Below are positions 14,951-26,258 of a DNA stretch of 64,000 nucleotides, piece after piece. Origin of the DNA: Verrucomicrobiia bacterium (GTDB lineage: Bacteria; Verrucomicrobiota; Verrucomicrobiia; Opitutales; Cerasicoccaceae); contig JAUIHT010000001.1 in NCBI GenBank assembly GCA_030432235.1, positions 186,001 to 250,000 on the forward strand, in the 5' to 3' direction. The notes beneath the pieces are model-generated. The model searched no databases and was not told the DNA's origin. It saw only the letters and a program-made list of their open reading frames with translations. Position 1 is the first letter of the stretch. Each line of letters opens with the position of its first letter. The position numbers were made by a program, and so were the translations under genes.

Positions 14951-14967
14951 TTTAGAATGATTCTAAA
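14951..14967. promoter_or_regulatory. Fur-type 7-1-7 operator overlapping the sufS start codon
   Basis: TTTAGAAT-G-ATTCTAAA is a perfect 8-1-8 palindrome containing TTAGAAT-N-ATTCTAA. This is the geometry of Fur/PerR boxes. The ATG of sufS (14957-14959) lies inside it. A closely similar palindrome precedes the Fur-family gene at 18865, so the two are probably bound by the same protein. Confidence 0.75.
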
Positions 14968-16198
14968 TAAGCAGGCAGGCGACTTCGACGTACAGGCGGT
15001 GCGGCGGGACTTTCCCATCCTGGGGACGACCGTTGGCGGCAAGCCTCTGGTCTATCTGGACAACGCAGCCACCTCGCAGAAGCCCCGTGCCGTTATTGAG
15101 CGGCTGGAGCGCTATTACCGTGAGGAGAATGCCAATATCCACCGTGGCGTGCACTTCCTCAGCCAGGAGGCGACCACGGCCTACGAGCAGGCCCGCGAGA
15201 CCGTCGCGCGCTTCCTTAACGCCCGCGAATCCCGCGAATGCATTTTCACCCGCGGCACCACCGAGGCGATCAACCTGGTGGCCAGCTCCTGGGGGGGGCA
15301 AAATCTGCAGGCAGGCGACGAAATCGTCCTCACCACCATGGAGCACCATGCCAATATCGTGCCCTGGCAGCTCTTGCGCGACCAAATCGGCATCGAGTTG
15401 AAGATCGTCCCCGTCCAGGACAGTGGCGAGCTGGATGTCGATGCCTTTAAGTCTCTTGTTGGTGACAAAGCGCGTCTGGTGGCGCTCTGTCATGTCTCCA
15501 ATGCTCTCGGTACGATCAATCCAGCCAAGGAGCTGATCGCCTTCGCCCATGAGCGTGGCGTGCCTGTCCTGTTGGATGGCGCGCAGGCCGCTGCGCATTT
15601 ACCCATCGATGTGCAGGCTCTGGACTGCGATTTCTTCACCTTCAGTGGTCACAAAGTCTGCGGGCCTACCGGCATTGGCGTGCTTTATGGCAAGGCAGAC
15701 ATCCTGGGCTCTATACCGCCGTATCAGGGTGGGGGAGACATGATCGACCGCGTCACTTTTGAAAAAACGACCTTCCGCGGGCTGCCTGAGCGCTTCGAGG
15801 CCGGTACGCCGCACATCTCTGGAGCCATCGGGCTGGCGGCGGCCCTGGATTATGTCACCGAAATGGGACATGGTGTTATGCAAGCACAGGAGCAGGACCT
15901 GCTGGCCTACGCCACGGAACGGCTTTCGGCTTTGCCGGGGCTGCGCATCTACGGTACGGCGCCGGAAAAGGTGTCCGTCATTTCCTTCATCATGGAGGGC
16001 ATCCACCCCAATGACGCCGGGGAGATCCTCGACGCCGACGGCGTGGCGGTGCGAACGGGCCATCACTGCACCATGCCACTGTGGGCGCGCTTCGGGTTGA
16101 CCGGTAGTATTCGCGCCTCTTTCGCCTTTTACAATACCCGCGAGGAGGTCGACATCCTGGTTGCGGGCCTGGAAAAAGTCCGCAAGCTGCTTGGGTAA
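14957..16198 (+). CDS. sufS: SufS cysteine desulfurase (group II)
   Basis: A 413-residue PLP enzyme that removes sulfur from cysteine for Fe-S cluster assembly. The N-terminus has DFPILGTTVGGKPLVYLDNA, as in SufS. The PLP Lys is K233 in FTFSGHKVCGPTG, the PLP-binding TTMEHHANIVPW is present, and the catalytic loop RTGHHCTMPLW carries Cys371. ATG 14957 is the only start that keeps the N-terminus; no convincing Shine-Dalgarno precedes it and the codon lies within a palindromic operator. The stop overlaps the next gene's ATG by one base (TAATG). Confidence 0.96.
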   Translation: MILNKQAGDFDVQAVRRDFPILGTTVGGKPLVYLDNAATSQKPRAVIERLERYYREENANIHRGVHFLSQEATTAYEQARETVARFLNARESRECIFTRGTTEAINLVASSWGGQNLQAGDEIVLTTMEHHANIVPWQLLRDQIGIELKIVPVQDSGELDVDAFKSLVGDKARLVALCHVSNALGTINPAKELIAFAHERGVPVLLDGAQAAAHLPIDVQALDCDFFTFSGHKVCGPTGIGVLYGKADILGSIPPYQGGGDMIDRVTFEKTTFRGLPERFEAGTPHISGAIGLAAALDYVTEMGHGVMQAQEQDLLAYATERLSALPGLRIYGTAPEKVSVISFIMEGIHPNDAGEILDADGVAVRTGHHCTMPLWARFGLTGSIRASFAFYNTREEVDILVAGLEKVRKLLG

Positions 16199-16629
16199 TG
16201 GATTCGGCTCACCAGGAGCTCTACCGCGAAATCTTCCTCGAACACAGCCAGGCGCCCCGCAATCGCGGTGAGCCTGAGGCGTTCGAGGCCAGGGCTCACC
16301 ATCGCGACCCCGAGACGGGCGACGAGGTCACCGTCTGGCTGTCGACGAGCGACGCTGCCTTGTCGGGGATTCGTTGGGAAGCGCAGGGAAGCAGTGTTCT
16401 GGCGGCTTCCTGTTCCCTCATGAGCGAGCATTTGGCGGGGAAAACGCCCGCCGAGGCTTTGAGCGCGATTGCTGCTTTCATCGCCATGCTGACCGGGTCG
16501 GAGGAGTGTTCCGATTGGGATGCCCTCGGGGAGGCCGCCGCGCTCAGCGGTATAAGCCACCTGCCAGCGCGTGTGCGTTGCGCCTCACTGCCCTGGCGTA
16601 CGGCCGAGGCGGCGATAAAGTCCCTTTAG
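16198..16629 (+). CDS. SufU-like scaffold/sulfur-transfer protein lacking two of three ligand cysteines
   Basis: The 143-residue protein aligns along its length with SufU/IscU. It opens with ELYREIFLEHSQAPRNRG and has the later LPARVRCASLPW. In Bacillus SufU the metal ligands are Cys41, Asp43, Cys66 and Cys128. Here the first motif reads DPETGDEV (Thr40 for Cys, Asp42 kept) and the second reads QGSSVLAASCS (Ser65 for Cys, with a Cys72 seven places on). Only Cys128 remains. It could still relay sulfur from SufS through Cys128 or Cys72, or serve as a partner without zinc. The one-base overlap with sufS says they are made together. Confidence 0.85.
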   Translation: MDSAHQELYREIFLEHSQAPRNRGEPEAFEARAHHRDPETGDEVTVWLSTSDAALSGIRWEAQGSSVLAASCSLMSEHLAGKTPAEALSAIAAFIAMLTGSEECSDWDALGEAAALSGISHLPARVRCASLPWRTAEAAIKSL

Positions 16630-17024
16630 CGTCTGCCCTCAAAGGCGTCGCGCACGGCCTTGCTCTGCAGTGCCCACAGGGCGTAGCCGCTCACGGCTAA
16701 TCCGAGGATGGTCTGCGCCCAGAAACTGATTTGTTGCGCCACTTCCAGCCCGGAGATGCTTTTTTGCCCACTCAGCACCACGATCAGGTCACCAAGGGTG
16801 AAAATCAGCACCACGAAGGAGCAGGCGATGGCAAAGTTTCGTGCCAGAGACCGGCGCTTCAATAAGCCGTAGCCGATGAATATGAACACCATCAGGAAGT
16901 TGATGTTCACCATCGGAGTATTGAAAAGCGTGTAGAGCGTTCCAATCAGAGCCAGAAATCCGACAAAGATAAAGGCCCAGCCGACGATTTTTAGCTGCTT
17001 GGGGAGGACGACATCCGCTGACAT
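16626..17024 (-). CDS. Four-helix inner-membrane protein
   Basis: About 132 residues from ATG 17024 (MSADVVLPKQLKIVGWAFIF); a longer start at 17069 is less likely. Four hydrophobic segments are visible: residues ~12-32, ~38-53, ~60-82 and ~97-118. Short basic loops (KRRSLARNF) sit between them. I do not recognise the family. It is convergent with the sufU-like gene and overlaps its stop by four bases, so it shares no operon with it. Confidence 0.7.
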   Translation of the reverse strand: MSADVVLPKQLKIVGWAFIFVGFLALIGTLYTLFNTPMVNINFLMVFIFIGYGLLKRRSLARNFAIACSFVVLIFTLGDLIVVLSGQKSISGLEVAQQISFWAQTILGLAVSGYALWALQSKAVRDAFEGRR

Positions 17025-17236
17025 ATCTGGATTGCATCGCCTTGCGCAGGTGAGGTCAAGCCTCTCCACGGGGCCGAAATCGGGCTCCGAAATGTTCCAT
17101 TTAGGTTAAATTATGTCGGGAAGGTGAACCAACTCCCGCAATTCACAAGTTATTCACAATTTGCCATCGGCTTTGCGCAGGTCCGTAGGGCCATAGAGGG
17201 CCTCCAGGCACCCTCAAGGTTTTTTGGCCGGAAAAG

Positions 17237-17335
17237 TCGATTCTCGCTTGAAATCTTTCGGCACTGGCTTTGCTTGGTCAAAGTACGATTGTCGCTTGAC
17301 AATCTGCAATGCAAAGTTACTTTGCATAACAAAGC
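17237..17335 (+). promoter_or_regulatory. Promoter with stacked palindromes ahead of the membrane/winged-helix operon
   Basis: A -35 TTGACA at 17296-17301 and -10 TACTTT at 17318-17323 are 16 bases apart. TTACTTTG-CATAA-CAAAGCTA (17317-17337) covers the -10, and ATGCAAAG-TTA-CTTTGCAT (17309-17327) overlaps it. TTGTCGCTTGACAA (17289-17302) is a perfect hairpin over the -35. Upstream, CTTTG-N6-CAAAG lies at 17268-17283. CGATTsTCGCTTGA recurs at ~17238 and ~17287. The arrangement suggests tight repression. Confidence 0.6.
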
Positions 17336-17336
17336 T

Positions 17337-17726
17337 ATGAAGGAGGAAAAAGCAACAGGCAGACTGCCCGACGCACGCGAAGTGCGTACGCACCGGGCTC
17401 GTGAGGGCGTGCTGCGGGTGGTGTCCACCAGGGCGCCCAGCGCGGAGGAGGCTGCGCGGGAGGCGGACTGGTCGGCGGGCTTCCCCTATTTCGGGGAGGC
17501 AGCGGAGACCCTTGACGCTCTGGACCTTTGGAACCGGACCAGCCTGCAGGCCCTTCTCTACCGGGGTTCAAGGCGTTTCCTGGGGGACCGGATATTCTGC
17601 CGTTTGCGTAAGGCCCGCTGGGCGGCGGGGCGGCTCCTGGCTGCCACCGTGGAGGTGCTCGATCCGGAGAATGGCGCGCTTCATCGCTTGCGTTATCGAG
17701 CGGGTCGTCCGCGAAATTATGCTTGA
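17337..17726 (+). CDS. Hypothetical protein, first in the winged-helix operon
   Basis: A 129-residue, very Arg-rich product from ATG 17337 (MKEEKATGRLPDAREVRTHR). No membrane segment or family is recognised. The predicted transcription start (~17330) would leave almost no leader, and the AAGGAGG at 17340 lies after the ATG, so the true start is uncertain. The strand opposite also carries a long open frame, as GC-rich DNA often does. It is placed here because it sits between two related palindromes and in front of the membrane protein gene; whether it is translated is open. Confidence 0.4.
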   Translation: MKEEKATGRLPDAREVRTHRAREGVLRVVSTRAPSAEEAAREADWSAGFPYFGEAAETLDALDLWNRTSLQALLYRGSRRFLGDRIFCRLRKARWAAGRLLAATVEVLDPENGALHRLRYRAGRPRNYA

Positions 17727-17745
17727 TACTTTCTCCTGCAAAGTA
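17727..17745. promoter_or_regulatory. Operator-like palindrome before the membrane protein gene
   Basis: TACTTTC-TCCTG-CAAAGTA has arms that match at six of seven positions with the same 5-base spacer as the sites at 5930 and 17317. It ends 12 bases before the ATG at 17758. It probably belongs to the same regulator. Confidence 0.6.
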
Positions 17746-17757
17746 AAGCTGTCGCTG

Positions 17758-18396
17758 ATGAAAGATCCGGTCGAGGAAGCCCTGCGCCAGGTGCGCGAAA
17801 TGCAGACACGCATGCTGCAGAAACAACGTTTCAAGGGCTACTCCGGTCGGGCTCGTGCCATGGGCGGCTGCTTTTGCCTGTTGATGGCCCTCTGGCTGGG
17901 CGCAACCGGCCAAACCTTCTCTCCGCTGCAGGTGCTCTACGCCTGGGCCGCCGTGTTCCTGCTGGCCGCCTCGTTGAATTTCGGCGCGCTCATCTACTGG
18001 TTTCTGGGCGATCCGGAGGTGGGTCGTGACTGGCGCCGCCTGCGTCCCCTCGGGGCCGTGCTGCCGGGGCTGGCCGCCGGGGCCATCCTCACGCTGGCGC
18101 TGGCGCGTCACGGCGAGTACGGGCTGCTTTACGGCGTCTGGATGTTGATTTTTGGCGTGGCCAACTTCGCCTCGCGGGCGGTTTTGCCGCGTGGCATTCA
18201 ATGGGCCGGTGCTTTTTACATGGCCGCCGGGGCCGTCTTTTTGCTGACTCCTGTCGCCGCCTTTACTGCACCGCTGGCCCCCGCCCTCGTATTTTTTGCG
18301 GGCGAGTGGCTCTCCGGCTTCATCCTGCACTTCGACGAACGCTCCAACAATACTTTGCTGGCCTTTTTCGGCCTGCCCAATCGCAACCATGAGTAA
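17758..18396 (+). CDS. Membrane protein paired with a winged-helix regulator
   Basis: About 212 residues from ATG 17758 (MKDPVEEALRQVREMQTRML); ATG 17719 is an alternative that would place the operator inside the gene. A cytoplasmic helical head of ~35 residues (VREMQTRMLQKQRFKGYSGRA) is followed by about six hydrophobic helices. I recall similar membrane proteins with a KQRFxGYSGRAR segment next to winged-helix regulators in Acidobacteria and other phyla; their role is unknown. The stop overlaps the regulator's ATG by eight bases. A sensor that captures or controls the regulator is a reasonable guess, not shown. Confidence 0.78.
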   Translation: MKDPVEEALRQVREMQTRMLQKQRFKGYSGRARAMGGCFCLLMALWLGATGQTFSPLQVLYAWAAVFLLAASLNFGALIYWFLGDPEVGRDWRRLRPLGAVLPGLAAGAILTLALARHGEYGLLYGVWMLIFGVANFASRAVLPRGIQWAGAFYMAAGAVFLLTPVAAFTAPLAPALVFFAGEWLSGFILHFDERSNNTLLAFFGLPNRNHE

Positions 18397-18757
18397 TTCT
18401 CAGACACCCTACGACTCCCTTCACCGGGCTCTGCACGAGCCCAAGCGCCTTGCTATCGTTTCCGCGCTGGCATCATCTGACAAGGGGCTTACCTTCAACG
18501 AATTGCGCGAAATCGGTGACCTCACCGACGGCAACCTGAACCGCCACCTCAAGATGCTTGAGGAGGAAAAGATCATCAAGCTGAAGAAGGTTTTGGCTGG
18601 TGGGCGTGCCCGCACCGTGGTGAGCCTGAGCGCAGCCGGCAAACGTCGCTTCCTGGAGTACCTGAATGCCCTCGAGGTCGTGCTGAAGGACGCCTCGAAG
18701 GCGGTTAAAGCCGGTGAGAAAGCTGCGGCCAAGGGGCTGCGCGCCAAAACGGCCTAA
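18389..18757 (+). CDS. Winged-helix transcriptional regulator
   Basis: A 122-residue DNA-binding protein. HEPKRLAIVSALASSDKGLTF and NELREIGDLTDGNLNRHLKM form helices 1-3 with the recognition helix in DGNLNRHLKML. The wing is GGRARTVVSLSAAGKRRFLE. This is the small MarR/ArsR-like winged helix (DUF4423-unrelated, HTH_34-like) often paired with the membrane protein upstream. A Lys/Ala tail (KAVKAGEKAAAKGLRAKTA) may add nonspecific DNA contacts. By position it is the best candidate for binding the ACTTTG-N5-CAAAG palindromes at 17317, 17727 and 5930. Confidence 0.88.
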   Translation: MSNSQTPYDSLHRALHEPKRLAIVSALASSDKGLTFNELREIGDLTDGNLNRHLKMLEEEKIIKLKKVLAGGRARTVVSLSAAGKRRFLEYLNALEVVLKDASKAVKAGEKAAAKGLRAKTA

Positions 18758-18805
18758 TCGGGTAGTATCAGAAGCGGTTGATGGTCTTATTCTTGATAAT
18801 TATAA

Positions 18806-18849
18806 ATGGAATTATTCTAAAAAGTAGTTGATTTTTGGAATCATTCCAA
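18806..18849. promoter_or_regulatory. Two Fur-type 7-1-7 palindromes upstream of the Fur-like gene
   Basis: TTGGAAT-C-ATTCCAA at 18835-18849 is perfect, and ATGGAAT-T-ATTCTAA at 18806-18820 matches at five of seven positions. The two are 29 bases apart. Both resemble the site over sufS at 14952. The surrounding DNA is AT-rich and probably holds the promoter; AAGGGG at 18857-18862 is the ribosome site for ATG 18865. Confidence 0.75.
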
Positions 18850-18864
18850 TTTGGTTAAGGGGTC

Positions 18865-19323
18865 ATGGAACTGACCACCGAAGCCAAGGAACAGCTCGAT
18901 ACCGCCCTCAGCGTTAGTGGGCTGCGCTCCACCCGGCAGCGTGAGCACATTTACAAAGTGCTGCTGACCCGTCGTGACCACCCCTCAGCCGACGAGGTTT
19001 ACGCCCGCGCCAAGCAGGAAATGCCCTCCATTTCCCTCGCCACCGTCTATAACTGCCTCGATACCCTGGTTGAGTGCGGCCTGGTCAAGCGTCTCAACTA
19101 CGAGCGCGAGTCCAGCCGGTACTGCCCCAACGACGGCGACCATGCCCACTTCATGGACGAAGCGACCGGTCGTGTCTATGACATCGCCCTGCCGGAGGAC
19201 TTTGAAAAGGTGGTCGCGAAAGTCCTGCCCGATGGCTTCAAGGCCAACAAAGTTAAACTGAGTTTTACCGGCTACGCCCCCGTCGACCTGGAGAGCAACC
19301 GCGTCGCCCTCAGCGCCAAATAA
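18865..19323 (+). CDS. Fur-family regulator without structural zinc cysteines, likely suf regulator
   Basis: A 152-residue Fur/PerR-like repressor. The winged helix is complete (LRSTRQREHIYKVLL, HPSADEVYARAKQEMP, SLATVYNCLDTLVECGLV). The hinge metal site keeps DHAHF, matching DHYH of PerR. Both CxxC pairs that hold structural Zn in most relatives are gone: FMDEATGRV replaces xCxxCGxx, and the C-terminal pair is absent. The dimerisation domain is shortened to FKANKVKLSFTGYAPVDLE. It heads the sufC-DJ-1-sufB-sufD operon (24 bases to sufC) and has its own palindromes upstream, so it probably autoregulates and senses Fe-S or iron status. Confidence 0.9.
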   Translation: MELTTEAKEQLDTALSVSGLRSTRQREHIYKVLLTRRDHPSADEVYARAKQEMPSISLATVYNCLDTLVECGLVKRLNYERESSRYCPNDGDHAHFMDEATGRVYDIALPEDFEKVVAKVLPDGFKANKVKLSFTGYAPVDLESNRVALSAK

Positions 19324-19347
19324 CCTTTAACGTAAGCACCAAGCATC

Positions 19348-20103
19348 ATGTCCCTGGAAATCAAAAATCTGAACGTCGAAATCGAAGGCCGTCCGATCCT
19401 GAAGGATTTCTCGCTGACCGTGCCCAAGGGCGAGGTCCACGCCATCATGGGCCCCAACGGCACCGGCAAAAGCACCTTGGCCAAGGCCCTGGCCGGCCAT
19501 GAGTTCTACCCGGTCATTTCGGGTGAGGCCTCCCTCGACGGCGAAAGCATTATCGGCCTGGAGCCGGACGAAATCGCCCGCGCCGGTCTCTTCCTGGCCT
19601 TCCAGTACCCGGCGGAAATCCCCGGCGTGAGCATCGCGAACTTCCTGCGCGCCGCGCTGCAAGCCCGCTTGCCCGAGGGCCAGAATATCAAGGCCACCGA
19701 GTTTTACAAAACGCTCTACGGCAAAATGGAGTCGCTGAAGATTGACAAGAGCTTCACCGGCCGCGCCATCAATGACGGCTTCTCCGGCGGTGAAAAGAAG
19801 CGCTGCGAGATTCTCCAGATGGCCATGCTCGAGCCCAAGTATTGCATCATGGACGAGACCGACTCCGGCCTCGACATCGACGCCTTGCGCATCGTCGCTG
19901 AGGGCGTCAACGCCATGCGCGGTCCGGATCGCGGCTTCCTCGTCATCACCCACTATCAGCGCCTGCTCGATTACATCGTACCAGACGTCGTCCACGTCAT
20001 GTACGACGGACGCATCGTCAAGACCGGCGACAAGACCCTCGCCCTCGAGCTCGAGGAAAAGGGCTACGACTGGGTGAAGGAAGAGTTGGCGGTAGGCGCA
20101 TAG
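19348..20103 (+). CDS. sufC: SufC, Fe-S assembly ATPase
   Basis: A 251-residue soluble ABC-type ATPase of the SufBCD scaffold. Walker A is GPNGTGKST (residues ~36-44), the ABC signature is [16 protein letters not shown], Walker B is [14 protein letters not shown] and the switch His is in [12 protein letters not shown]. Sequence and length match SufC closely. ATP binding changes the SufB-SufD interface to expose the cluster-building site. A DJ-1-like gene separates it from sufB. Confidence 0.97.
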
Positions 20104-20123
20104 AAAACGGCAAGGATCTCGTC

Positions 20124-20822
20124 ATGGACGAAGTTATCCAAATTATCATCCTCTTTATCGTCACCAGCCAATCCCAAATGGGGATGGATGGGAAGCCGAC
20201 GGGTGCCTGGTTGGAAGAGGTGACGACGCCCTACTATGCGTTTGTCGATGCTGGCTATGACGTGGTCGTTGCTTCTCCGCAGGGCGGGGAAATGCCTGTT
20301 GATCCGCGCAGCCTGAATGAGCGCGGTATGGCCGAATCGGTAAAGCGGTATCTGGAGGATGATGCGGCTCAGCGTCTGTTTTCGCAAACCATCCCGCTGG
20401 CAGAGCTACCCGATAGTGACTATGCCGCCGTATTCCTGCCCGGTGGACATGGACCGATGTGGGACTTGGCTGACAATGAAGACGTAGGCATGGCTATCGC
20501 AGTCTTTGTCCTTGAAGATAAACCGGTTGGAGCGGTTTGCCACGGTCCGGCTGGCCTGCTGACTGCCCAAGACCGCGATGGAAACTGGCTCTTTGTCGGC
20601 AAGGAAATGACGGCATTTTCCAATTCAGAAGAAAAAACTGTAGGCTTGGATAAAACCGTGCCCTTTCTGCTGGAAAGCCGTTTGGTTGAACAAGGAGCGA
20701 CCTACTCGCGTGTCAAAAACTTTGAGCCCCATATCGTTATCGACGGTATGCTGGTCACTGGCCAGAACCCCGCATCCGCCGCACCCGCAGCCTCTGCCAT
20801 TATTGAATTACTACAGAACTAA
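20124..20822 (+). CDS. DJ-1/PfpI (Hsp31-like) protein inside the suf operon
   Basis: A 232-residue member of the DJ-1/PfpI superfamily of the larger, Hsp31/HchA-related type. It contains [33 protein letters not shown] and the nucleophile elbow [11 protein letters not shown] with the reactive Cys near residue 138. The conserved Glu sits in WLEEV. Such proteins are proposed to be chaperones, deglycases or glyoxalases. It lies 20 bases after sufC and 17 before sufB, so it is made with the Fe-S machinery. Its codon use is slightly more AT-rich than that of sufC and sufB, which hints at later insertion into the operon. Confidence 0.9.
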
Positions 20823-20839
20823 ATTTTAAGGAAAACATT

Positions 20840-22252
20840 ATGAGCGACATCGCCACACCCGATATCGAAATCGACCGCAGCAAGGGCAACTTTTCCTTCA
20901 AGGAGGATTACAAGTATGATGCCGGCGTCGGTCTGACCGAGAAGACCATCGACTACATCTCCGACGTCAAAGGGGAGGAGCAGTGGGTGCGTGACTTCCG
21001 GAAGAAGGCCCTCAAGATTTTCAAGGACAAGCCCCTGCCGACCCACTGGGCCAGCAAGGACCTGGAGACGATCAACTTCGACGACGTGCGCTACTATCTG
21101 TCCAAGGGGCAGAAGGCCAGTCGCACCTGGGATGAGGTGCCCGATGACGTCAAGGAGACCTTTGAGCGCCTGGGGATCCCCGAGAGCGAGCGCAAGTACC
21201 TCGCCGGCGTGGAGGCACAGTTCGACAGCGAGGCGGCCTACTCCAAGATGAAGGACGAGCTGGCCAAGCAGGGCGTCATCTTCGTCGGCCCGCACGAAGG
21301 CCTGCACGAGCATCCGGAGATTTTCAAAAAGTTCTTCGGGAAGGTCATCCCTATCGGCGACAACAAATTCTCCGCGCTCAACAGCGCGTGCTTCTCCGGT
21401 GGCAGCTTTATTTACGTGCCCAAGGGCGTGAAGGTTAAGCAGCCGCTCCAGGCCTACTTCCGCATTAACGCGGAGAACTTCGGGCAGTTCGAGCGCACGC
21501 TCATCATCGCCGACGAGGGCAGCGAGGTCACCTACATGGAGGGCTGCACCGCGCCGAAGTTCGACACTGCCACGCTGCACGCCGCCGTGGTCGAGCTGGT
21601 CGCGCTCAAGGGCGCCAAGCTCCAGTACATCACGGTGCAGAACTGGTCCAACAACGTTTTTAATCTGGTCACTAAAAGAGGGATGGCTGAAGAAGATGCG
21701 GAAGTCCGCTGGATCGACTGCAATATCGGCTCCCGCCTGACCATGAAGTACCCCGGTGTCATCCTGCGCGGCGAACGTGCCCGCGGGGAAGTCCTCTCCA
21801 TCGCGTTGGCCAGCGACGGCCAGCACCAGGACACGGGCGCGAAGATGATCCACGGCGCGAACAACACCACGTCGAACATCATCGCGAAGTCCATCAGTGT
21901 AGGGCAGGGGCGCAGCACCTATCGCGGGCAGGTCGTCATGCCCAAGCATCTGACGCACTGCAAAAACAACACCGAGTGCGACGCGCTGCTCATCAACACC
22001 AACAGCCGCACCGACACCTATCCGGCCATCACCGTGCGTGGTGACCATAACAGCGTGCAGCACGAGGCCAGCGTGTCGAAGGTCAGCGCCGAGCAAATCT
22101 TCTACATGCAGCAGCGCGGCCTCGACGAAGGCACCGCCATGAGTCTGGCCGTCAACGGTTTTGTTAACGACCTCGTACGCGAGTTCCCCATGGAGTACTC
22201 AGTAGAGCTCAAACGTCTCATCGACCTTGAGATGGAAGGCTCGGTCGGATAA
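20840..22252 (+). CDS. sufB: SufB, Fe-S cluster scaffold
   Basis: A 470-residue SufB with the characteristic N-terminal half ([35 protein letters not shown]) and right-handed beta-helix core ([35 protein letters not shown]). The candidate cluster Cys lies in [12 protein letters not shown] near residue 379. The C-terminus carries the SufC-binding helices ([20 protein letters not shown]). A ribosome site AAGGAAA precedes ATG 20840. With SufC and SufD it builds [Fe-S] clusters from SufS-derived sulfur. Confidence 0.97.
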
Positions 22253-22343
22253 GCGAATCCACGCCTAAGCGTAACAAGCACTTTCAAGCTGACAGACAAT
22301 TCGCCGAACGCGGCACATACACACTCTAGCTGACAGATTAATA

Positions 22344-23666
22344 ATGCCCACATTGGACACACTCACTTTCGACGATGAATCGTTTCAGGCTCACGTGGCG
22401 GACTTTGTTTCCACGCCGTGGTTGCAAAACCTCAAGCGCGAAGCCTGGGCTGAGTTCCAGCGATTGCCCATGCCCGCGCGCACGGATGAGACCTGGCGCT
22501 TCAGCGATCTGCGCAAGATTTCCCTGGACGGCTTCAAGCCAGCCACCGAGCCGCACACCGAGGAGCGTGAAGCCCTGCTCGACCGCTCACATCTGGTCGA
22601 CGGCTTCGCCGGTCGCCTCGTCTTCGGTGACAACCACCTGCTTGCCTTCGACGAAGTCGACCCCGAGCTGGCCGCCAAAGGCGTCATCTGGAAGCCGTTG
22701 CCGCAGGCCATTCGCGAGCATCCCGAGCTGGTGAAAAAGTACCTCGCTGCCGAGGACCACAAGCTCGGCGGAGACAAGCTGCGCGCGTTGCACTACGCCT
22801 TTTTGCAGGGCGGTAGTTTCCTTTATGTGCCCAAGGGCGTTGAAATCGAAAAGCCCTTCGTCGCTTACTACTGGAGTTGCCACTGCGAGGAGGCCATCTT
22901 CCCGCACACCTTGCTCGTGGCCGAGGACAACGCCAAGGTGAACTTCGTCGACTATTACGGTTCCAAGGAGTGCGATTGCGATTGTCCGGCGCTTTCCATC
23001 GCCGCCGCTGCCACTGTGGCCGGGCCCGGTGCGCAGGTCTTCCGCAAGGTTGTGCAGGACTACCATTTGAACACGACGTCGTTTCAGCTCGAGGCCAACA
23101 TCGGCCACAAGGATGCCGTCATCAAGAGCCTCGCACTCAACCTCGGCTCGCAGTACGCGCGCATGGAAAACCAGACGCGCATCGCCGAGCCCGGCGCGAA
23201 CGTCCACGTGTATTCGCTGACCGTCGCCACCGGTGAACAGGAGTTCGACCAGCGTACGCTGCAAACCCACGGTGCGCCCAGTGCCTTCAGCGACCTGCTT
23301 TACAAGAACGCCTTGCTGGACAAGTCACGCACCATCTTCAGCGGTATGATTTTGGTTGAGCCGGACGCGCAGCAGACCGATGCGTATCAAACAAATCGCA
23401 ACCTGTTGCTTTCCCCTCAGGCCGAGGCTAACTCCCTGCCGGGCCTCGAGATCGAGGCCAACGACGTCAAGTGCTCGCACGGCGCCACCACCGGCCAGAT
23501 CGACGACGACCAGTTGTACTACCTGCGCAGTCGCGGCATTCCCAAGGAGGTCGCCTACGAGCTGCTCGTCTTTGGCTTCTTCGAGGAGATTATCGAGAAG
23601 TTCGACAACGAGGAGCTCAAGGACAACGTCCGCGCACTGGTCCAGAGAAAGTTCAGCAATCAGTAA
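22344..23666 (+). CDS. sufD: SufD, partner of SufB
   Basis: A 440-residue SufD. It contains ARTDETWRFSDLRKISLDGF near the N-terminus, GGSFLYVPKGVEIEKPFVAYYW in the beta-helix, the conserved SxHGxxxG element CSHGATTGQIDDDQLYYLRSRG, and the helical tail DNVRALVQRKF. It pairs with SufB and is needed for iron entry. The 91-base gap after sufB has two direct copies of AGCTGACAGA (22287 and 22328) but no clear promoter or terminator, so read-through is expected. Confidence 0.96.
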   Translation: MPTLDTLTFDDESFQAHVADFVSTPWLQNLKREAWAEFQRLPMPARTDETWRFSDLRKISLDGFKPATEPHTEEREALLDRSHLVDGFAGRLVFGDNHLLAFDEVDPELAAKGVIWKPLPQAIREHPELVKKYLAAEDHKLGGDKLRALHYAFLQGGSFLYVPKGVEIEKPFVAYYWSCHCEEAIFPHTLLVAEDNAKVNFVDYYGSKECDCDCPALSIAAAATVAGPGAQVFRKVVQDYHLNTTSFQLEANIGHKDAVIKSLALNLGSQYARMENQTRIAEPGANVHVYSLTVATGEQEFDQRTLQTHGAPSAFSDLLYKNALLDKSRTIFSGMILVEPDAQQTDAYQTNRNLLLSPQAEANSLPGLEIEANDVKCSHGATTGQIDDDQLYYLRSRGIPKEVAYELLVFGFFEEIIEKFDNEELKDNVRALVQRKFSNQ

Positions 23667-25694: not shown

Positions 25695-26258
25695 ATGCCA
25701 GCCGATAATCACCGTATTCTGAGCCGCGACGTCGAGGCCACCGTCATCCCTGCCGGGGAGGTGCTTGTGCTGCCCGCCGGCACCCACGTCGATATCACCC
25801 ACCGCCTTGGCGGTAACTTCACCGTCGTCTGCGACCACGGCATGTTCCGCCTCCTCGGCAAGGACGCTGACGCCATCGGCGAGGAAGAAGCCGCCGCCGA
25901 TGCCGAGCAGGCGTCCGCCAAAAAAGACGACGACCACGAAGGCCCGCCCGACGAGGCCACGCTCTGGGATGCGCTGAAAACGGTCTACGACCCGGAGATC
26001 CCGGTCAACATCGTCGACCTTGGCCTGGTTTACTCGCTCAGTGTGGAGGAATCCGAGCCCGAGGAGTACGCCGTACACGTCCATATGACCCTGACCGCGC
26101 CCGGCTGCGGCATGGGCCCGGCCATCGCCGACGACGCCAAATGCCGCCTCGAGGGCGTACCGGGCGTCGACCGCGCCCAAGTGGACATCGTCTGGGACCC
26201 GCCCTGGACGCAGGACATGATTTCCGAAGAAGGCAAAATGGAGCTCGGGCTGATATAG
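25695..26258 (+). CDS. sufT: SufT-type Fe-S assembly factor (MIP18/DUF59 domain)
   Basis: A 187-residue protein with the SufT layout. Residues ~1-60 form the N-terminal SufT extension ([20 protein letters not shown]), then an acidic linker rich in Glu/Ala/Lys follows. The DUF59 domain begins [20 protein letters not shown] near residue 95 and holds the hyper-reactive Cys in [11 protein letters not shown]. SufT matures Fe-S proteins downstream of SufBCD. It completes the third suf block, after the MscS gene. Confidence 0.92.

Follow-up and report, generated by a model that had tools for sequence, protein, structure and literature searches.

The window, the 64-kb stretch of DNA analysed here, carries its suf genes for Fe-S cluster assembly in two separate blocks, the second of which opens with a gene for a Fur-family protein. 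This raises the question of what the protein does at suf and which signal it might read. All genes concerned lie on the + strand. The first block (14957-16629) comprises sufS, encoding a cysteine desulfurase (14957..16198), and sufU (16198..16629). The second starts with the 152-aa regulator gene (18865..19323; fur) and continues with sufC (19348..20103), a DJ-1/PfpI-family gene (20124..20822; Pfam PF01965), sufB (20840..22252) and sufD (22344..23666); sufT (25695..26258) follows with one gene between it and sufD, and the locus comparison places it 3' of sufD in many relatives. Each suf gene scored above the cut-off of its NCBIfam model (TIGR01979 for sufS, TIGR01994 for sufU, TIGR01978 for sufC, TIGR01980 for sufB, TIGR01981 for sufD and TIGR03406 for sufT). 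Searches of the open-licence literature turned up no paper dealing with the control of Fe-S cluster assembly in Verrucomicrobiota or with this regulator.

The Fur-like protein matched Pfam FUR (PF01475) with 91.4 bits against a cut-off of 23.1, which places it in the Fur superfamily, and reached the cut-off of none of the NCBIfam equivalog models. The best of these was a PerR model (84.2 bits versus a cut-off of 180); the models for Irr (67.2 versus 170), IrrA (69.1 versus 150) and E. coli Zur (17 versus 167) also scored below theirs, and on these curated models we rejected an identity as PerR, Irr or Zur. The closest PDB relative by sequence was B. subtilis PerR (2fe3; 3.9e-18). An AlphaFold2 model (mean pLDDT 88.2, pTM 0.74) has the fold of a winged-helix N domain and a dimerisation domain, and matched the PerR structure 3f8n with a Z of 14.8 (136 aligned, rmsd 3.2). 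In a tree that took 40 of 141 family members, the 40 family rows formed one branch against 19 paralogues (support 100/98); among references with long branches, this clade adjoined, weakly (87/72), a branch with PerR-like rows. Judged by sequence, the protein is a member of a distinct Fur-family subfamily in Verrucomicrobiota, linked to suf, which we propose here.

The linkage was counted in three sets of loci. The first was made up of the best 80 from a total of 255 relatives; the labels of these 80 read Verrucomicrobiota in most cases, just 'bacterium' in a few and 'Proteobacteria' in one. For the second, 73 of 94 genomes of the same class had strong matches (at least 126 bits), as against none of 194 others; its loci came from 60 of the 73 strong-match genomes (own genome aside), together with 20 weaker paralogues. 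The third sampled a sufB-first lineage separately (40 of 58 genomes, 36 loci). The Fur-like gene lay beside suf in 78/80, 59/60 and 34/36 loci, respectively, and the weaker paralogues in 0/20; these locus counts are not independent, because the sets overlap and contain near-copies, with at least 9 of the 36 third-set loci appearing to be shared with the first. Four of the five loci without suf linkage were at contig ends, and one family member (locus L176) lay away from suf. All 59 suf-linked loci of the second-set 60 were sufC-first. At sufB-first loci, sufS was downstream within the same cluster in 18 of 44. An HTH_34 gene that precedes fur in the window was considered as a conserved partner and rejected, with no tblastn matches in the second-set loci.

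What sets the family apart is a single residue. The PerR ligand set is His37-Asp85-His91-His93-Asp104, of which the window protein keeps four; Asp85 is replaced by Cys87 (codon 19123..19125, + strand), with which it aligns in a PDB alignment to B. subtilis PerR that is ungapped from H39 to H95. Position 87 was Cys in 81/81 proteins of the first set plus the window (best 80 of 255 relatives), 60/60 of the second and 35/35 of the third, and Asp in all 19 of the 20 weaker Fur paralogues whose row was read. In the second set, then, 60/60 with Cys and 59/60 linked to suf stand against paralogues with 19/19 Asp and 0/20 linked. His39 was equally constant (81/81 with the window, 60/60 and 36/36), and in the second set H39, C87, H95 and D106 were each present in 60/60 and H93 in 58/60. 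The predicted metal site is thus His39-Cys87-His93-His95-Asp106, a ligand set that, as aligned, is neither that of PerR/Fur nor that of Zur.

The original prediction had described a cysteine-poor protein that keeps DHAH, lacks both CxxC pairs and may use a different metal site. The window protein fits that description, with three cysteines, no CxxC and D92-H93-A94-H95, but the description does not define the family. A structural zinc site of two CxxC pairs is usual, not universal, in the Fur superfamily; among the 141 family members 81 had no pair, 10 had one and 50 had both, so that the lack of CxxC is derived, and we rejected it as a defining feature. By these alignments the hallmark of the family is Cys87. 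A different metal site is indeed indicated, but the change affects the regulatory site, where Cys87 substitutes for Asp/Glu at a ligand position that had been overlooked. Cys64, in the recognition helix, was found in 81/81 (first set plus window), 58/60 and 31/36; its strict conservation was rejected, as the first-set scan used ATVYNCLD as search word and profile searches show exceptions.

Three palindromes had been claimed, one at the sufS start and two upstream of fur, and all were recovered. The sufS operator, TTTAGAATGATTCTAAA (14951..14967), contains the start codon of that gene (ATG at 14957-14959). Upstream of fur are the weaker O1, ATGGAATTATTCTAA (18806..18820), and O2, TTGGAATCATTCCAA (18835..18849), whose core is invariant in 4/4 genomes of the window's family. 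Allowing up to two mismatches, the pattern TTRGAATNATTCYAA hit exactly these three sites in the 64 kb, where shuffled windows led us to expect 0.31 (maximum 2; 0/100 shuffles reached 3). A looser pattern, TTNGAATNATTCNAA, had three exact places in the 5.72-Mb genome of the organism, two of them window sites; at up to one mismatch there were nine places against five with the reversed control, so that the genome-wide count alone is weak and the strength lies in position and conservation. The third exact site (L009) is within a DUF3592 gene adjoining an AcrB-type gene and looks like chance. Another site, with one mismatch (L015), is found ~90 bp past the point where a HemS/ChuX heme gene ends, but upstream of a different ORF, which has no Pfam match; this site, too, is probably due to chance.

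Across relatives, the palindromes were mostly present upstream of suf where the regulator was carried. A TTrGAATnATTCyAA site matching at least 13 of 14 letters was found in 74 of 80 first-set promoters (the window's and those of 79 loci; L043, with no upstream DNA, was dropped), 39/60 of the second and 33/36 of the third. Start codons were assigned automatically to the nearest ATG, which is wrong in places (probably at L021) and shifts the site positions. None of the 20 paralogue promoters reached this score, and the shuffles averaged 0.00; 2/20 did reach 12/14, and at its low end the score thus lacks specificity. Nine of the 60 second-set promoters had no site of at least 11/14; all nine come from one genus, five of them keeping GAATTGTTCTTG and four nothing similar. 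In 22 other whole genomes there were 14 exact operators, 13 of them at fur-suf, compared with two for the reversed pattern; the one elsewhere (L210), near a PhoD-like gene, looks like chance. Suf linkage and operator conservation therefore support the Fur-type suf regulator with 7-1-7 operators that had been proposed. The split regulon was upheld in part: the sufS operator kept 12-14 of 14 letters in 4/4 genomes of the window's family, and at 12/14 or better was in 0/26 other genomes of the order, so that we rejected it as an order-wide feature.

The placement of the sites bears on the direction of regulation. In sufC-first promoters, two sites 29 bp apart were seen in 37/95, window included, with O2 filling the -35/-10 spacer; 48/95 lacked a 29-bp pair at 11/14 or better, and a further 10/95 lacked any such site, one of these lacking upstream DNA. 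The window has O1 and O2 at this spacing, with a predicted -35, TTGATT (18828..18833, +), between them and a predicted -10, TTTGGT (18850..18855, +), after O2, both hexamers being read from the consensus of the 37 paired promoters and from the four family genomes, in which the -35 is identical. A dimer bound at O2 should exclude RNA polymerase, and the layout points to repression. In sufB-first promoters the operator was directly before the -35, at near-fixed spacing, in 43/43 read (of 44 loci; L064, best site 12/14, was left out by a script rule because its ORF reads through), and the -35 was TTGACA or close to it in nearly all 43. This abutment from upstream would fit an activator of suf as well, and about half of the sufC-first promoters are without the 29-bp pair that suggests a block; nevertheless, activation seems quite unlikely to us, given O2 between -35 and -10 in the 37 paired promoters and a sufS site that overlaps a start codon. 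Nor would the near-consensus sufB-first -35 obviously need an activator's help. Most likely, on this layout, the Fur-like protein represses the suf operon and its own gene in many Verrucomicrobiota.

Could the protein nonetheless be a familiar Fur-family regulator? The case for an ordinary PerR, a peroxide regulator settled in a suf operon, draws on the best PDB and NCBIfam matches, the retained equivalents of His37, His91, His93 and Asp104, and the weak neighbourhood in the tree. However, the PerR model fell far short of its cut-off, Asp85 is Cys in every readable family member, and 13/14 exact operators were at fur-suf rather than spread across a peroxide regulon, which makes this explanation unlikely. 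The fold is shared with PerR; a gene at the head of suf is a difference. A Zur-type zinc sensor acting on suf would account for the Cys, as the regulatory site of Zur combines one Cys with two His and one Asp/Glu, Cys84 (B. subtilis numbering) standing where PerR has Asp85 (excerpt of PMC4866751; C84S data in that of PMC5007448). The same excerpt of PMC4866751 describes Zur as lacking the His37 equivalent, whereas His39 is kept throughout the three sets here, and with a Zur model score so far below its cut-off we consider such a sensor very improbable.

Cys-Pro is a heme motif, and Pro88 follows Cys87 in 120/141 members (four were unread by the script). This is a hint only of an Irr-like, heme-responsive regulator, for which the Irr scores of 67-69 bits and the site past the HemS/ChuX gene also speak; the operator also resembles the Irr site, and Irr, itself of the Fur family, binds TTAGAAATATTCTAGA at the Rhodobacter suf promoter P3 (PMC6956336, in excerpt). 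Yet Ala or Ser follows Cys87 in 17/141, both Irr cut-offs were missed, the L015 site also precedes another ORF, and here the regulator heads the operon while the exact site hardly occurs elsewhere; we give this reading very little credence. In function the nearest likeness would be to SufR and IscR, which exert dedicated, autoregulated control of Fe-S assembly (excerpts of PMC11631912 and, for IscR, PMC6956336); as far as those excerpts go, these are other protein families and Fe-S-cluster-linked, whereas the present protein is of the Fur family.

The family, its suf linkage, the operator, the site layout relative to promoter-like hexamers and the Cys87 substitution are computed observations; binding, repression and signal we infer from them. 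We regard it as highly probable that the protein acts as a dedicated repressor of suf, encoded within the operon and controlling its own gene, from a distinct Fur subfamily in Verrucomicrobiota. Other Fur-family members offer precedents: PerR of S. mutans represses sufCDSUB in an iron-dependent manner (PMC11631912, in excerpt), and Irr binds at the Rhodobacter suf promoter P3. A metal-loaded dimer would bind TTrGAATnATTCyAA at O1 and O2 of its own promoter and at the third site at the sufS start, keeping RNA polymerase off as long as no further Fe-S assembly is called for. Loss of the metal under iron shortage, or oxidation of the site, would release the protein from the DNA and switch suf on; the signal would then be iron and/or peroxide. 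More tentatively, and on balance doubtfully, the His-Cys-His-His-Asp site may read Fe-S assembly status directly, through thiolate-bound iron, a cluster or a persulfide, so that a Fur lineage does the feedback job of SufR/IscR in Verrucomicrobiota, many of its members having shed the structural zinc site.

A dedicated repressor tied to one operon by an operator rare elsewhere would make an unusually clean test case: the gene and the operator are defined, a direction of control is predicted, and Cys87 is the one residue to alter. The family would also represent a third type of Fur-family regulatory site, intermediate between those of PerR/Fur and Zur, and would offer a natural series of proteins from a single suf-linked group, some retaining the structural zinc site and others having lost it. 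A minor observation concerns the regulator's own transcript: the fur start codon is 10 bases past the end of the predicted -10, so the mRNA may be leaderless.

The Fur-family gene of the window (18865-19323) lies ~2.2 kb past sufS-sufU (14957-16629). Behind it come sufC, a DJ-1/PfpI gene, sufB and sufD; sufT stands farther downstream. Candidate operators matching TTRGAATNATTCYAA with at most one mismatch are located over the sufS start (14952-14966) and before fur (O1, 18806-18820; O2, 18835-18849). The three palindromes of the original prediction are thus present, against a mean of 0.31 matches with up to two mismatches in shuffles of the window. A looser exact pattern occurs at three places in the whole genome, two of them the window sites. 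With one mismatch permitted there are nine places versus five for a reversed control, so the operator case from this genome alone is modest. Also in this genome, the stretch from a HemS/ChuX heme gene to the ORF after it contains an operator-like site with one mismatch (locus L015, 1501-1515).

Comparison of relatives settles the suf linkage and the predicted operator. In the first locus set (the best 80 of 255 relatives from a genome-collection scan built on words of the query), suf was the next gene found in 78/80 loci; the contig ends in the other two. Two layouts were seen: fur-sufC-sufB-sufD, as in the window (34 loci), and fur-sufB-sufC-sufD (44 loci), with sufS further downstream in 18/44 of the latter. 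The same regulator and operator precede two rather different SUF sets, SufB being ~80% or, in the sufB-first loci (L044-L095), ~43% identical to that of the window.

Because the first scan relied on words from the query, the linkage test was redone with a profile. The phylum was represented by 288 genomes: matches of at least 126 bits, taken as strong, occurred in 73/94 genomes of the same class (own included) and in 0/194 others, where the best match reached 108 bits. We fetched 60 of the 73 strong-match genomes (second set) and 20 weaker Fur matches as a paralogue comparison. Suf adjoined the family gene in 59/60 loci, and was adjacent to 0/20 paralogues. The exception, L176, is a family member with Cys87, yet without nearby suf genes or an operator. 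In a third set, drawn around a sufB-first genome, the family was present in 40/58 genomes; suf adjoined in 34/36 of the loci fetched, and contig ends truncate the remaining two. The sets overlap, with at least 9/36 third-set loci apparently shared with the first; 26 of the other 27 are beside suf and 24 have a site matching at least 13 of the 14 palindrome letters. A Fur-type regulator dedicated to suf, as originally proposed, is supported by the linkage in all three sets.

Operators were sought up to 200 bp upstream of fur and scored in letters of 14. A site of at least 13/14 was present in 74/80 promoters of the first set (79 loci plus the window), 39/60 of the second and 33/36 of the third; the 7-1-7 sites mostly track suf in relatives, one of the points on which the original prediction had staked itself. 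No such site was found in the 20 paralogue promoters, nor on average in shuffles; at the 12/14 level, 2/20 paralogue promoters match. The nine second-set promoters without a site of at least 11/14 are all from one genus (g29), and the other 51/51 have one. In 22 whole genomes besides the window's, the exact pattern occurred 14 times versus 2 for the reversed control, with 13 of the 14 occurrences at fur-suf (the exception is locus L210). The 9/22 genomes without an exact site have 12/14 or 13/14 sites at their fur-suf promoters. Since the exact sites are nearly all at fur-suf, little beyond this one operon is predicted to belong to the regulon; sufS joins it in the window's family, whose 4/4 genomes have a 12 to 14 letter site over or next to the sufS start. 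At this level, no site was found at sufS in 26 further genomes from the order. The split regulon first suggested was seen in the window's family alone.

In nearly all of the 43 sufB-first promoters read, TTGACA or a near match lies 3 bp after the operator; in roughly three quarters, TA...T follows with 16 bp in between. Among 95 sufC-first promoters, 37 carry a pair of sites at a distance of 29 bp, which flank a TTG-type -35 and place O2 in the -35/-10 spacer; 48 lack the 29-bp pair, and 10 have no site of at least 11/14, one of these lacking upstream DNA. The stretch TTGATTTyTGGAATCATTCCAATTTrGT is identical in four window-family genomes but for the two marked letters. Occupation of O2 by a dimer should keep RNA polymerase off, and a site spans the sufS start; this layout argues for repression and autoregulation. 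The predicted -10 of the window fur ends 10 bases before the start codon (18850-18865), and 6-13 bases separate the predicted -10 from the start codon in 33/43 sufB-first promoters; given this proximity, the fur-suf mRNA may be leaderless.

Bacillus subtilis PerR is the best PDB sequence match of the window protein, and the folds nearest its predicted structure (pLDDT 88) are Fur and PerR structures. The PerR ligands in the available text of PMC4866751 (His37, Asp85, His91, His93 and Asp104) correspond to His39, Cys87, His93, His95 and Asp106 (ungapped alignment His39-His95). Cys87 is present in 81/81, 60/60 and 35/35 rows of the three sets (one of 36 third-set rows was cut), and paralogues have Asp there in 19/19 (one more row unread). 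PerR uses Asp85 as a ligand, whereas the suf-linked family has Cys87; Zur shares the Cys but, in the same text, lacks a His37 equivalent, whereas the family has His39. The predicted set His39-Cys87-His93-His95-Asp106 consequently fits neither group. The different metal site originally suggested would be this predicted regulatory one, with Cys87 in place of Asp. Two family members, L180 and L182, carry additional residues immediately ahead of the metal-binding HxH, which alter His93 in the alignment.

The window protein has neither CxxC pair of the structural zinc site, as first noted, but this is not family-wide: both pairs occur in 50 of 141 members, one in 10 and none in 81. The first pair is retained in 35/35 third-set rows, and both in 16/19 paralogues. 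As many members and most paralogues keep the pairs, their loss is most simply read as a derived state. The recognition helix often has Cys64, though not invariably (58/60 in the second set, 31/36 in the third).

The window protein falls below every NCBIfam cut-off (PerR, 84 of 180; IrrA, 69 of 150; Irr, 67 of 170). A 71-row tree unites the 40 family rows, against 19 paralogues, in a single branch (support 100/98) whose nearest neighbour, weakly, is a branch with PerR-like rows. We consider, with good confidence, that the protein represses suf and its own gene in a metal-dependent manner, the likely signals being iron and/or peroxide. That it senses Fe-S or thiolate-iron directly we regard as a less likely possibility. 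Fur-family control of suf has precedent, since Streptococcus mutans PerR exerts iron-dependent repression of sufCDSUB, in the text available the first direct PerR-suf link to its authors' knowledge (PMC11631912), and Irr binds a Rhodobacter suf promoter at TTAGAAATATTCTAGA (PMC6956336, from the text available). A dedicated Fur-family regulator heading suf with such a metal site was not found in searches of open-licence papers; we judge the suf-linked regulator to be real and widespread, and probably undescribed.

An HTH_34/ArsR-like gene (18389-18757) stops ~110 bp before fur. It matches the SufR model weakly (21 bits; cut-off 178.8) and gave no tblastn match in the second-set or paralogue loci. 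The gap separating sufC from sufB holds the DJ-1/PfpI gene (20124-20822) in the window; the corresponding gap of a sister genome (L149, 7294-8940) has in its place one ORF named by eye as alcohol-dehydrogenase-like and another as lipoprotein-like.
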